DNA of 27,417 nt from a bacterium (GTDB taxonomy: Bacteria; UBP14; UBA6098; 4484-93), in NCBI GenBank assembly GCA_021158465.1, contig JAGGUN010000009.1:1-27417 (forward strand). Reading direction: 5' to 3'. Each line of letters opens with the position of its first letter. The first letter of the stretch is position 1. The notes below the pieces were generated by a model that had not been told where the DNA came from, ran no database searches, and saw only the letters and a program-made list of their open reading frames with translations. Of this stretch, positions 20,945 to 26,382 are shown piece by piece. The translations under genes were made by a program, and so were the position numbers.

Positions 20945-23569
20945 ATGACGATTAGATCTATAAAGGGGCTTTGCCTGATAACGCTTGTTCTCTTAATGGT
21001 GAAGCCCCTTTTTCCGTTTTCACCGCAGGATACCGCAGTCGGTGTGACTGTTCACGAGCCTTACATAATCGATTGCGATTATTTCTACTTTACCGTTTGT
21101 GTCAGGGATTCGGCAGGCTATTTTGTCCGTGGGCTCTCCATAGATGATTTTGGGATACAAGAGAATGGGGAAACCGTTGTTCCGCCTGCTCTCGAGATGC
21201 TCTCTGATTGCCCGATAGAGTCGTTGAAGGTGGATATCGTTATGCTTATGGATATGTCATCGAGTATGGACGATGACCTTGCCAGGCTTGCTGTTCAGGT
21301 GCCACGGTTTGTCGCCGGGCTCACCGGAACGGACTACCGGATTTCCATCATCCGCTTCAACGGATGCAGCTCCACCGATAGGGTGATTATCAAAACGGAC
21401 TTCTCGCTTTCCTCCTGCCGATATATATCCACAGGACCCGATATGTGGGCGACAACAGAGGATGATTTTTCCTGCCTGTACGATGCTGCTATGACAGTCT
21501 CTCATGGCTCAGGGCATGAAGACCAGTATGGTGCTATGGTCTTCGCCGCCGAGAACCTGACATTCCGTGCAGGAGCATCAGTTTTCTTTATCTTGCTCAC
21601 CGATGAGCGACCTCAAACGAGCTACGGCTGCTCACCCTATCTGGATGAATCGAGGGGGTCATACGAGTGGATAAGAGATTATCTCAACTCTCATAATATC
21701 CACTGCATACCGGTAACCCCGCACGATGGGGAGTTCGAATACTGGTGGTCGGGTGGCGAATCCCCCGATAGGCGCTTCTATGACTGGTATTACGACCTTG
21801 GACCGGAGACAGGCGGCGCATGGTTCTATCTGTACTCCGATGATTATGGTGAGCTGGTCGACGATATAACAGGGACGATTGTCTCTACCCCCTGCTGCTA
21901 CCATTTTCGATACCCGCTTGTCAATTTCTGCACGGAGGCGAACACGCTCTATGTTTCTGTCGATGACTATGGTGAGGCGGAAACAACATATGTCCCGCCC
22001 TGTCCACCTGTATTATCAGTGCTTGTCCCACCCTTCCCCCGTGGGGTTACTACCTGCAGAAATCAGCCTGCTGTTTTCCTCTTCGATAGGGGAGGAGTGG
22101 ATACGAACACAATCATCCTTTCTGTCGATGATTCTCTTATAAGCATTTCATCATCCGGCGGAGATATAACATTCTACCAGGACACACTGAGATACATCCC
22201 TTCTGTTCATTTCGCACACAACGAGACAGTAAGTGTTGCTCTATTCTCTGCATCCGACACATTCGGTTGCCCGATAGATACCGTATCCACCGTTTTTGTT
22301 GTGGATACGCTCCCACCGGAGTTTTTGTCTCCAGCACCAACAGGTGTGGTTCACACTGCAACTCCGGATATATCTGTTCGGATAGTCGATGCCCCTGCTG
22401 GTGTCGACCCGGCGACGGTTACTCTCGGGAATACGGAAGTCTCTGTCAACTCCTCACCTGTTGCAGGGTATAGCATCTCTTGGGATGGGGAAATCTTGCA
22501 TTTTCTCGGGCTCGAATTCTCCGACAGGGATACCGTTCGCATCTGTGTGAGCGGTATAGCGGATGACCCGGACTATCTCTTCTGTCCGGCGAATGTGGCA
22601 GATGAGTTCTGCTGGAGCTTCTTCGTATCGCTTCTGGGACCGGTTGCGAGAAACATCATTCCGCTGGATAGCACATATACTGCCTGCGATGATCAGGGTA
22701 TAAAGATTGTCATCAGCGACCCCGATGGTATATCCCCTGAGACCGTTCTGCTCGAGGTGGCAGGAAGGGAGTATAGTTTATCATCACCCGAGATAGATTT
22801 TTCAGGGGATACCCTCATCTTCACTCCGAGTGTGCTCTTCACGGATGCTGAGACGGTTACCGTTCGGCTTATCCACATCGAGGATATATACGGCAACCCG
22901 AATGCCGATACCCTCACCTTCTTGTTCATAGTTGACCTGACACCGCCTGAGATTGCTTACATCGAGCCGGCTGTTCCTATGGTGCGCGACAAGTCGCCGA
23001 GAGTGCTTTTCGAGGTATACGATGCCTTGTCTGGTGTTAATCTCGACTCTATCAGGTTCGAGTTGAACGGTAGACGGTTCAGCCCGGCACAGCTCACAGT
23101 TACCCCGGTTTCACATAACAGGTTCATTGTGCTGTTCGACCCGGCTGCCTTGGGGCTCGAGTTCAGCGATGGTGATACATTGACATTTACCCTTTACAGC
23201 TGTGACTCGCCCGACTACTGCCCTCCAAACTGCTCGAGCATCTCTGGACACTTCATGATAGAGCCGATCGTATCCTGCCTCGCCTTCCCGAACCCGTTCT
23301 CGCCGAACGGTGACGGCTACAACGATGTCGCCGTTTTCAACTACCAGTTTATGTTCTCCGAGACAGCAAAGATAAGAGTATTCAACCTCCGAGGGGTGCT
23401 TGTCTGGGAAAAGGATGTCGAACCGCTTCGCTCTATCTACGACTATAGTGCCCGCTCATGGAACGGAGAGGATATGAACGGCAACCCGCTCCCTGAAGGG
23501 CTGTATCCATTTACAATCGAAGTCAATGGGCAGATTATCTGCCAGGGAACGGTTACGCTGGCAAGGTGA
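20945..23569 (+). CDS. Secreted VWA-domain protein with Ig-like repeats and a type B-like (gliding-associated) C-terminal domain
   Basis: An 874-residue exported protein with a signal peptide at ~6-27 (GLCLITLVLLMVKPLFPF). VWA ~95-315 has MIDAS D103-M-S105-S-S107 (LMDMSSSMDDD). It is strikingly similar to the 13695 protein (shared PRFVAG, TDYRISIIRFNGC, EDQYGAMV, LTDERPQT, TPHDGEFEYWWSGGESP). Ig-like repeats follow at ~360-765: the first resembles the 13695 protein (GVTTC at ~366), and a later one resembles the 17333 protein (TACDDQG at ~579). It has no cohesin-like or GWN module. The C-terminus from residue 782 (PNPFSPNGDGYNDV, then a FlgD-like fold, ending GTVTLAR) resembles the T9SS type B / CHU_C gliding-associated domain. 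The SD before ATG 20945 is weak, and the 15-base gap suggests coupling to the upstream gene. Confidence 0.88.
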   Translation: MTIRSIKGLCLITLVLLMVKPLFPFSPQDTAVGVTVHEPYIIDCDYFYFTVCVRDSAGYFVRGLSIDDFGIQENGETVVPPALEMLSDCPIESLKVDIVMLMDMSSSMDDDLARLAVQVPRFVAGLTGTDYRISIIRFNGCSSTDRVIIKTDFSLSSCRYISTGPDMWATTEDDFSCLYDAAMTVSHGSGHEDQYGAMVFAAENLTFRAGASVFFILLTDERPQTSYGCSPYLDESRGSYEWIRDYLNSHNIHCIPVTPHDGEFEYWWSGGESPDRRFYDWYYDLGPETGGAWFYLYSDDYGELVDDITGTIVSTPCCYHFRYPLVNFCTEANTLYVSVDDYGEAETTYVPPCPPVLSVLVPPFPRGVTTCRNQPAVFLFDRGGVDTNTIILSVDDSLISISSSGGDITFYQDTLRYIPSVHFAHNETVSVALFSASDTFGCPIDTVSTVFVVDTLPPEFLSPAPTGVVHTATPDISVRIVDAPAGVDPATVTLGNTEVSVNSSPVAGYSISWDGEILHFLGLEFSDRDTVRICVSGIADDPDYLFCPANVADEFCWSFFVSLLGPVARNIIPLDSTYTACDDQGIKIVISDPDGISPETVLLEVAGREYSLSSPEIDFSGDTLIFTPSVLFTDAETVTVRLIHIEDIYGNPNADTLTFLFIVDLTPPEIAYIEPAVPMVRDKSPRVLFEVYDALSGVNLDSIRFELNGRRFSPAQLTVTPVSHNRFIVLFDPAALGLEFSDGDTLTFTLYSCDSPDYCPPNCSSISGHFMIEPIVSCLAFPNPFSPNGDGYNDVAVFNYQFMFSETAKIRVFNLRGVLVWEKDVEPLRSIYDYSARSWNGEDMNGNPLPEGLYPFTIEVNGQIICQGTVTLAR

Positions 23570-23669: not shown

Positions 23670-23693
23670 AATACTCGGGGTGTAGCGCAGATG
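23670..23693 (+). repeat. 24-bp direct repeat: duplicated leader plus first 18 nt of tRNA-Pro
   Basis: Bases 23670-23693 are identical to 23730-23753, exactly 60 bp apart. Each copy has 6 leader bases (AATACT) followed by the first 18 bases of tRNA-Pro (CGGGGTGTAGCGCAGATG). The upstream copy stops inside the D-loop and the rest of the tRNA is absent, so it is a 5' tRNA fragment rather than a functional gene. Integrase att duplications normally carry the 3' end of a tRNA, so this is more likely a small tandem duplication or the scar of a rearrangement. Confidence 0.9.
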
Positions 23694-23718: not shown

Positions 23719-23735
23719 ATAAAAAATAGAATACT

Positions 23736-23808
23736 CGGGGTGTAGCGCAGATGGTAGCGCGTGCGGTTCGGGACCGCAAGGTCATGGGTTCGAATCCCAT
23801 CACCCCGA
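23736..23808 (+). tRNA. tRNA-Pro (anticodon CGG)
   Basis: 73 nt. Acceptor CGGGGTG pairs with CACCCCG; the D-arm is GCGC...GCGC; anticodon stem TGCGG/CCGCA encloses loop TTCGGGA (anticodon CGG, reading CCG, with the G37 typical of Pro tRNAs); T-arm ATGGG-TTCGAAT-CCCAT; discriminator A. CCA is not encoded (the next bases are GTCGG). Confidence 0.97.
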
Positions 23809-24029
23809 GTCGGCAAGCGCCGTCAGGCGACCCAGCTGAGCCTGGCAGAAGAACATGAATTGCAAGACCCCATAAGCTTTCTCTCTAATTTTGCGTTTCA
23901 CCAAACAAAAAGGGTAGGTTCTACTATCCCAGCTAAGCCAGATAATTCCAGTAAAATGAGTTATGCACTTTTTCACTTGAAAAAGGAGAAAAAATTATTA
24001 AATTGAAAAAATTTAAAAAAGGATAGGAT
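23809..24029 (+). other. Intergenic leader between tRNA-Pro and rpmH
   Basis: No gene is supported here. The first ~40 bases are G+C-rich with small self-complementary stretches (CGCC/GGCG and CAGGC/GCCTG). The last ~50 bases are very A+T-rich and lead into the rpmH ribosome binding site (GGATAGGAT). A -35-like TTGAAA is at 23977 without a convincing -10. Together with 23570-23735 this is the longest stretch in the window without a protein gene (460 bp including the tRNA). Confidence 0.5.
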
Positions 24030-24191
24030 ATGAAAAGAACATATCAACCAAGCAGGATTAGAAGAAGCAGAACTCACGGGTTTCGCGCTCGTATGAGGAC
24101 GAGCTCCGGTAAAGGTATACTTGCAAGGCGCCGGAGAAAGGGGAGAAAGAGGATCGCTGTTATGATCTCGTCGAAGGGGAGAGCGTATTAA
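24030..24191 (+). CDS. rpmH: 50S ribosomal protein L34
   Basis: A 53-residue, highly basic protein of the large ribosomal subunit. It matches the L34 signature from the first residue ([37 protein letters not shown]). Typical L34 is 44-46 residues; this one has a short extra tail ([11 protein letters not shown]). The DNA encoding the tail also carries the SD and the start of rnpA, which may explain its retention. The start is ATG 24030, preceded by GGATAGGAT. It is the first gene of the rpmH-rnpA-yidD-yidC-mnmE cluster. Confidence 0.98.
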
Positions 24192-24519
24192 AAAGTTCTC
24201 TTTTCCCAGGAACCGGTTCATTCGGAAGAAGCGTGAATTCGATCTCCTAAAAAGGTTTGGCAGAAGGATTGATGGCGATGTTCTTTCGGTAGTCTTTGCC
24301 AGATGGGATAATCCGACGCGCTTCGCCTTGATTGTTCCAGGGAGGGTAGGTACAGCGGTGAGGAGAAATCGGATGCGTCGTGTGATCAGAGAGCATCTCA
24401 GAACGGCTCGAAACTGGAAGGAAGGGTATGCAATACTTGTTATCGTCTCCAGATATGCAGAAGCACGACAGATAAGGGAAGAGCTCGATTCACTCTTTGC
24501 CAAGATTTTCACCGAATGA
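24187..24519 (+). CDS. rnpA: Ribonuclease P protein component, apparently with an AUU start codon
   Basis: The protein partner of RNase P RNA, which matures tRNA 5' ends. The frame encodes the full family: [16 protein letters not shown] at the N-terminus, [28 protein letters not shown] (the conserved RNR RNA-binding helix) in the middle, and a C-terminal helix to TE. Between the upstream in-frame TGA (24163) and the end of the conserved N-terminus there is no ATG, GTG or TTG; the first is a TTG at 24328, which would delete over 40 conserved residues. ATT at 24187-24189 gives 110 residues, the normal length, and is preceded by GGGGAG (24176-24181) with a 5-base spacer. It overlaps the rpmH stop by three bases (ATTAA). 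Its TGA overlaps the yidD start (ATGA). A sequencing error is the main alternative. Confidence 0.85.
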
Positions 24520-24752
24520 AGAAAATTTTTATGAATATTATTCGGTTTTACCAGAGATATGTATCTCCCCTTAAGGGTTCAACCTGTATCTACTATCCTA
24601 CATGCTCCGAGTACACTCGGATCTCGATAGAGAGGTTTGGGGTTATTAAGGGCAGTTTTTTGGGTATTAAGAGAATTCTGCGGTGCAACCCTCTGTTCAA
24701 GGGTGGTTATGACCCGCCTCCGGAGAGAGTGAGTCGGTATGGGAAAGAATGA
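24516..24752 (+). CDS. yidD: Membrane protein insertion efficiency factor YidD
   Basis: A 78-residue YidD (UPF0161) protein, a small amphipathic membrane-associated protein that assists YidC/Sec-dependent insertion. Diagnostic motifs are the N-terminal [26 protein letters not shown] (Cys-containing) and the C-terminal [14 protein letters not shown]. Its ATG overlaps the rnpA stop (ATGA at 24516-24519), and its end overlaps yidC by 14 bases, so translation is probably coupled on both sides. Confidence 0.97.
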
Positions 24753-26382
24753 GATAATCGGGCTTGTCATTATTGCGATTATCGTTATGCTCACCCCGCT
24801 CATCCAGTATAAGATGATGGGGAAGAAGGAGGCTTCTCCCAAGCAAGCTCAGACCGGTGTTGGAGAGATGGATACGGCACAGGCTGTCATCGGGGAGCAT
24901 CCACCTATCCCTGCCGAAAGCCTGCTTGCTGCCCTTCAGGATACAGCCGCATCGGTTAAGAATGTCAAGGTGGAGACCGAAAACTATATAGCATATTTTT
25001 CAACTCAGGGTGCCGATATTACGAGGTTTATCCTCAAGAAGTATGCTACTGGTGATAGGCTCGTTAATCTGATCCACGAAGATACCATCCCGACATTTCC
25101 ATATAACTTTCGTGTTGCCTCTATTCCGATATCGACAAGGGATATTGTCTTCTCCTGCGATATCGATTCGGTCTCGCTTGCTGCTGGACATTCTGGGTCG
25201 ATAAGGTTCAGTGCGAACCTCCCATCAGGGGTTCGCATCCTCCGTGATTTTGCCTTCGTCTCTGGGAGCTATGATATAATAGAGGAGATTTGTGTCGAGT
25301 CTGACTCCCTGCCGATATCCTCAGGAGAATTGCTGTTCGACCGAGTGCTTTATCCAACAGAATCCGACAAGCGGAAAGCCTTGGGATATGAGGCAAGGTA
25401 TCAAATAGTAGGCAAAGCGAGCAAGGTAAAACCTGCTTCGCCTGGTAAGGATAGAAAGATTGATATCCCTGCTCCTGTGGATTGGATGGCTTCGTCGATA
25501 AAATATTTTACCGTCTTGGTTGCCCCGATAGCAAAGGATAATGTAGCATCTGGAAGCATCCTTGCCACGACCGATAGCGTATATTTTGAGGGGGAGAATG
25601 TCACACTGCCCAAGTTCACACTCACCGTCTCTGTTCCCTGTAGTTTGAACGGTTTTACAGCGAAACACAGGCTATATCTCGGTCCGAAGAACTATTTTGG
25701 TTTAAAGGAGTATGGAAAAGGGTATGAAAACCTTGTTAGTTTTGGCTGGGGTTGGTTGCGTCCGATTGCTCTTGCATTCCTGTGGCTCTTTGTGAAGCTG
25801 TATTCTGTGCTTCACAACTATGGGCTCGTCCTTATTGTATTCTCTGTCATCTTGAAGATAGTTCTACTGCCGACGACCCATTCCTCGATGCGCTCTGCCC
25901 GCCTGATGCGTGAATTGCAGCCAAAATTGAAGGAGCTTCAGAAGAAATACAAGAACGACCAGAAGCGGCTCACAGAAGAGACATTGAAGCTCTACAAGGA
26001 ACATAAAGCGAGTCCGACAGGTGGATGCCTGCCACTCCTGCTGCAGATGCCGATATTCATTGCTCTGTTCGGTGTCCTGTCCAACACCGTGGAGCTTCGA
26101 GGACAGCCGTTTATCCTCTGGATACACGACCTCTCCCAGAAAGACCCATACTACATCCTGCCACTGGTTATGAGCCTGACAATGTTTCTGAGCCAGAAGA
26201 TGACCATCACTGACCCCAAACAGAAGATAATGGCGTATGTTATGCCAGTTGTTTTCTTCTTTATATTCGGCGGAATGCCGTCCGGGCTCGTTCTGTACTG
26301 GACGACATTCAACATCCTCTCACTCGGGCATCAATACCTCTTCGAGCGCTCCTGTGAAAAAGCAAATGCCTCTGAGAAGTGA
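24739..26382 (+). CDS. yidC: Membrane protein insertase YidC
   Basis: A 547-residue Oxa1-family insertase of the inner membrane. There is an N-terminal TM (~5-22), a large beta-rich periplasmic domain (~60-325, the Gram-negative form), then the conserved five-helix core. [11 protein letters not shown] carries a Lys at the position of the groove Arg366 of E. coli YidC. The coiled cytoplasmic hairpin is [47 protein letters not shown] and PSGLVLYW are all family signatures. Its start lies inside the 3' end of yidD and lacks a strong SD, implying coupling. Its 3' end overlaps the proposed mnmE start by 17 bases. It would insert SecYEG clients and tail-less small membrane proteins. Confidence 0.98.

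Follow-up and report, generated by a model that had tools for sequence, protein, structure and literature searches.

The gene rnpA encodes the protein part of RNase P, an enzyme that trims the ends of tRNAs. In the stretch of bacterial DNA analysed here (27,417 nucleotides; hereafter the window), this gene lies in an operon with the order rpmH, rnpA, yidD and yidC, followed by a frame resembling the start of mnmE (Table 1). The locus raises the question of where translation of rnpA begins, as no ATG, GTG or TTG (hereafter canonical start codons) occurs in its frame between the TGA that closes the frame upstream and TTG 24328. The codons following the TGA are TCT CGT CGA AGG GGA GAG CGT ATT AAA AAG TTC TCT TTT, and the ATT among them is the sole near-cognate start downstream of this stop and ahead of the conserved domain. 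A first-pass annotation of this DNA had placed the rnpA start at this AUU, overlapping the rpmH stop codon, and had noted that the in-frame TGA bars any upstream extension; the TGA was read directly, and the AUU is most probably the start. Our best explanation, drawn from sequence comparisons, is that rnpA is very probably translated from this AUU by re-initiation coupled to rpmH, with the weak codon keeping RnpA scarce.

Table 1 Features of the rpmH–rnpA junction and the surrounding operon in the window
Feature	Position	Strand	Description
rpmH, ribosomal protein L34	24030..24191	+	53 aa; ATG start; TAA at 24189-24191; TIGR01030, 68.9 bits; PF00468, 71.2 bits
TGA in the rnpA frame	24163..24165	+	Read directly; closes the frame upstream
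AAGGGGAG, Shine-Dalgarno-like	24174..24181	+	Ends 5 bases before ATT; contains GGGGAG (24176-24181)
ATT, proposed rnpA start codon	24187..24189	+	Shares its last base with the start of the rpmH TAA (ATTAA)
rnpA, RNase P protein component	24187..24519	+	110 codons and TGA; 110 aa; includes the RNR motif region
yidD	24516..24752	+	ATG overlaps the rnpA stop (ATGA); TIGR00278, 88.1 bits; internal control for a canonical start
yidC	24739..26382	+	ATG; TIGR03592, 210.5 bits (cut-off 84.3); TIGR03593, 93.5 bits (cut-off 58.25); internal control

The rnpA frame is intact, carries the conserved motifs, and is present in single copy in a genome that is 97.6% complete. It matched PF00825 with 62.1 bits over profile positions 1–108 of 109 (24202–24507) and TIGR00188 with 40.4 bits, above the family cut-off of 38.35, in agreement with the conservation described in the first-pass annotation. 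Translation from TTG 24328, the first canonical codon, would remove 47 residues (a loss of more than 40 had been claimed) and leave a 63-aa protein that scores 27.8 bits against the same cut-off, so that gene callers restricted to canonical codons would truncate rnpA, as had been anticipated. Thus, the full conserved RnpA is not obtainable from any in-frame ATG, GTG or TTG, which makes rnpA a probable case of a gene with a non-canonical start. A start further downstream, at ATT 24220 or at this TTG, would require the N-terminus to be dispensable, for which a parallel exists in Helicobacter-like relatives, whose short N-termini begin some 10 codons ahead of the conserved Phe. Nevertheless, such a start is very unlikely here, since the TTG product falls below the rnpA cut-off and ATT 24220 lies just 6 codons before this Phe with no obvious Shine-Dalgarno (SD) sequence, whereas ATT 24187 precedes it by 17 codons, close to the 18 codons found in a small phylum described below.

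Because rpmH, yidD and yidC all begin with ATG, rnpA stands apart within the operon. At the rpmH–rnpA junction, the assembled sequence is ATTAAAAAGTTC, in which the C-terminal extension of rpmH carries both the putative ribosome-binding site of rnpA and the proposed start. This KG-containing extension of L34 is common to relatives in the phylum and aligns with those of two families (f2 and f4), and the rpmH frame is therefore trustworthy almost to its stop. The GGGGAG previously noted 5 bases ahead of ATT 24187 was read there, within a putative SD sequence with presumed complementarity to the anti-SD. Folding of the junction RNA showed nothing notable (z −0.17) and so lends the AUU start no support. 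The occurrence of some ATT within about 13 codons is, taken alone, also unremarkable, with a chance of about 1 in 5. What goes beyond chance is that an intact essential gene has no canonical start, together with the conservation of the same arrangement in other phyla.

Comparison of the junction with those of related genomes, proposed in the first-pass annotation as a check, covered the phylum of the window's organism (17 genomes). Canonical starts do lie nearby in the same phylum, an outcome that the first-pass annotation had named as refuting, but they come from different genera and families with different junctions: TTG or GTG adjoins the rpmH stop in family f4, the rnpA GTG overlaps the rpmH end in f2, and rnpA lies apart from rpmH with a possible ATG start in f3. 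The rnpA start is thus evolutionarily mobile in the phylum. The AUU junction of this lineage is known from one genome, other families of the phylum using TTG, GTG or ATG, and these canonical starts show the AUU to be lineage-specific; they do not show it to be false. The only congener, G001, gave no match to the junction DNA, to RnpA or to the L34 family, which is uninformative because that genome is 80% complete and in about 130 contigs.

A point beyond the first-pass annotation is that, judging from the aligned loci, an AUH start (AUU, AUC or AUA) of rnpA is no lone curiosity but is kept in at least three further groups of phylum rank. The first is a small phylum of nine genomes in four genera, where all eight rnpA genes found have an ATT overlapping the rpmH stop, in the context CC-ATT-TTA or CC-ATT-CTR and beginning within the last-but-one sense codon of rpmH; an in-frame TAA lies just two codons upstream of ATT in two of the eight, and canonical codons are also present far upstream in one of the eight, that of genome G068. 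In the second phylum, 15 of 18 rnpA genes have AUH (12 ATT and 3 ATC); a sister family has ATG.

The third group, presumably Campylobacterota to judge from protein sequences, genome sizes and the spread of genera, was represented by 79 loci and includes single-contig genomes; its rpmH start, taken as a control, was canonical in 79/79. When ten loci of family f44, which have TTG or GTG at or near codon +3, just inside the domain, were set aside from 68, the remaining 58 loci, from ten families and with no nearby canonical start, had AUH at codon −3 without exception (54 ATT, 2 ATC and 2 ATA; usual context, TAG AAA AAG ATT). At the other positions from −6 to +4, AUH occurred in at most three loci, except at codon 0 (28/67). 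Moreover, rnpA has moved off rpmH in several members of family f224, and ATT or ATC is retained at the same codon, 3–21 bases past the rpmH stop, where the codon is free of rpmH coding. The rpmH codons spell xxA-TTR, creating the ATT, in 50/50 loci without another rnpA start versus 9/29 with one (Fisher p 4e-12, with kinship among loci ignored); within family f160 alone, the counts were 3/3 and 0/4. GC-richer members of this group have CGA TTG at this place, even though their other Arg codons are mostly CGC and CGT. The possibility that ATT arises by chance from AGA-TTR codons of rpmH is disfavoured for this Campylobacterota-like group by the AUH codons outside rpmH and by the codon-constraint comparison.

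In a broad bacterial draw of 162 rnpA genes, 25 had no canonical codon in a span reaching 30 codons upstream and 3 codons downstream of the first position of the domain, some of them with Thermus-like starts far upstream, while the rpmH start was canonical in all 151 evaluable loci of this control. Over the 256 loci read altogether, which included clades followed up for absent canonical starts and hence give totals of biased frequency, a canonical start was nearby in 163, only far upstream in 13 and absent in 80. AUH was present in the search interval in 73 of these 80, to which three short genes of family f270 are to be added, their ATT falling outside that interval. A long overlap with a nested rpmH is possible in the 13 of 256 loci with a canonical start only far upstream. 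Three further rnpA genes, L135 (G308), L160 (G326) and L189 (G372), had neither a canonical start nor CTG or ATH near the domain start; ACG, frameshifting or assembly error are candidate explanations. In three loci of family f104 from three genera, L106 (G246), L122 (G358) and L141 (G124), the CTG of rnpA overlaps the rpmH TGA (CTGA), and in two of these loci an ATG is present far upstream as well. In L092 (G357) and L097 (G245), from genomes of about 0.8–0.9 Mb, the rpmH frame starts with QPSKIK behind an in-frame stop, possibly a TGA read as Trp, as in mollicutes.

These comparisons also bear on a sequencing or assembly error, by which a true canonical start would have been turned into an artefactual AUU. 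The junction comes from one assembly of 54 contigs, and several single substitutions in the first rnpA codons could yield a start. However, rpmH reads in the right frame as far as the conserved KG in its extension, ATG in place of ATT would destroy the rpmH stop, and indels in the short remaining stretch would bring no canonical start into frame unless the two genes fuse. Moreover, dozens of unrelated genomes, many of them single-contig, have kept this arrangement, and the canonical rpmH starts of the loci in other phyla make assembly error unlikely as a general explanation, so that we regard such an error in the window as very unlikely. Conservation of the oddity in at least three other bacterial groups instead suggests a deliberately weak start over a sequencing slip. 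Still less probable is a ribosomal frameshift close to the end of rpmH that would append RnpA to L34 without new initiation. The two frames do overlap, and the SD-like sequence 4 bases ahead of UAU UAA loosely resembles the +1 frameshift site of prfB, but tRNA-Tyr on UAU re-pairs poorly with AUU. The window would require a +1 shift and the other groups a −1 shift. In several relatives, moreover, the frame is closed by a stop a few codons ahead of AUH, or AUH lies past the rpmH stop, so that no single frameshift mechanism fits all groups. Decay of rnpA in this genome, to which loss of the canonical start would be one route, is hardly credible for an intact, single-copy frame with its conserved motifs in a nearly complete genome.

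Under the leading explanation, re-initiation at the AUU, we infer that rnpA translation starts at AUU itself, is coupled to rpmH, has a low output and is probably sensitive to IF3. Ribosomes would end rpmH at the overlapping UAA, and AAGGGGAG just upstream would help the terminating ribosomes to re-initiate at AUU (termination-reinitiation coupling). The weak AUU would keep RnpA, of which few copies are required, far under L34, and IF3, which disfavours AUU, would probably affect the output of rnpA. AUH initiation is plausible in these cells, since infC has starts of the AUA, AUC or AUU type in the same genomes: in the window's own genome (L200; G000:C24, near 59435), GGAGG is followed by GTA ATA ATC, and in the congener G001 (L199) by GTA ATA ATT, with no canonical start before the IF3_N domain in either case. 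In the small phylum of nine genomes, infC has ATA.

Precedents for the separate steps are available. The start codon of infC is AUU in E. coli and AUC in Streptomyces, and IF3 feedback hinges on this codon; sigR, with GTC in Streptomyces, is another gene whose non-canonical start is repressed by IF3, as is that of infC (PMC5472188 and references therein). In E. coli, the AUU start of pcnB limits expression (Binns and Masters 2002, via PMC13009471), and S. aureus cvfC1 and ccpN, with AUU and AUA, respectively, give lower output than with AUG (PMC13009471). Re-initiation in E. coli employs initiator tRNA together with IF2, and excess IF3 lowers it (PMC2268962). Low RnpA and a response of rnpA to IF3 are plausible because they are consistent with what is known of infC, pcnB and sigR.

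The likeness to each of these systems is partial. As in infC, the AUH start of rnpA appears to be kept over long distances, but the gene is another one, which adjoins rpmH and cannot autoregulate IF3. Like rnpA, pcnB encodes an RNA-processing enzyme with an inefficient AUU start, but no overlap between it and a gene for a ribosomal protein is known. The starts of cvfC1, ccpN and sigR are likewise non-canonical, clade-conserved and SD-supported, but each was reported in a single clade, in contrast to the pattern of rnpA in several phyla. In Thermus, rpmH and rnpA overlap and rpmH is nested in rnpA, both genes starting with AUG (PMC9841429). Overlapping frames are thus translated there too, but nesting of this type is ruled out in the window by the TGA, as the rnpA frame is not open from near the rpmH start. 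Our search of open-access papers, with subscription journals and database annotation outside its scope, returned no report of rnpA with an AUU or other non-canonical start. The best reading is that rnpA probably joins the genes with AUH starts, such as infC and pcnB, as a new and recurrent case.

AUU-type starts are documented for few bacterial genes, mostly in single clades. If a core enzyme gene kept AUU, AUC or AUA and avoided ATG, GTG and TTG in many families, this would provide strong natural evidence that weak starts are selected. It would also connect the supply of RNase P with the synthesis of ribosomal proteins and perhaps with IF3, and standard gene callers would mis-start or miss rnpA in these groups. 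A wider and rather doubtful extension is that the AUH start of rnpA serves regulation, whether it is ancient or has evolved repeatedly, and ties the output of RNase P protein to L34 translation and IF3 activity. The capacity for tRNA maturation might thereby track the initiation machinery in several phyla, and rnpA might follow infC as the second AUH-start gene with broad conservation.

Two other features of the window were observed. The region 20945–23569 encodes an 874-aa protein with a weak match to a VWA domain, the C-terminus of which scores near the cut-off for a type IX secretion sorting domain (33.1 versus 35 bits). A 24-base exact direct repeat occurs at 23670–23693 and 23730–23753; its unit consists of the first bases of tRNA-Pro(CGG) (23735–23809) and 5 upstream bases, and the copy 60 bases upstream is a truncated tRNA.
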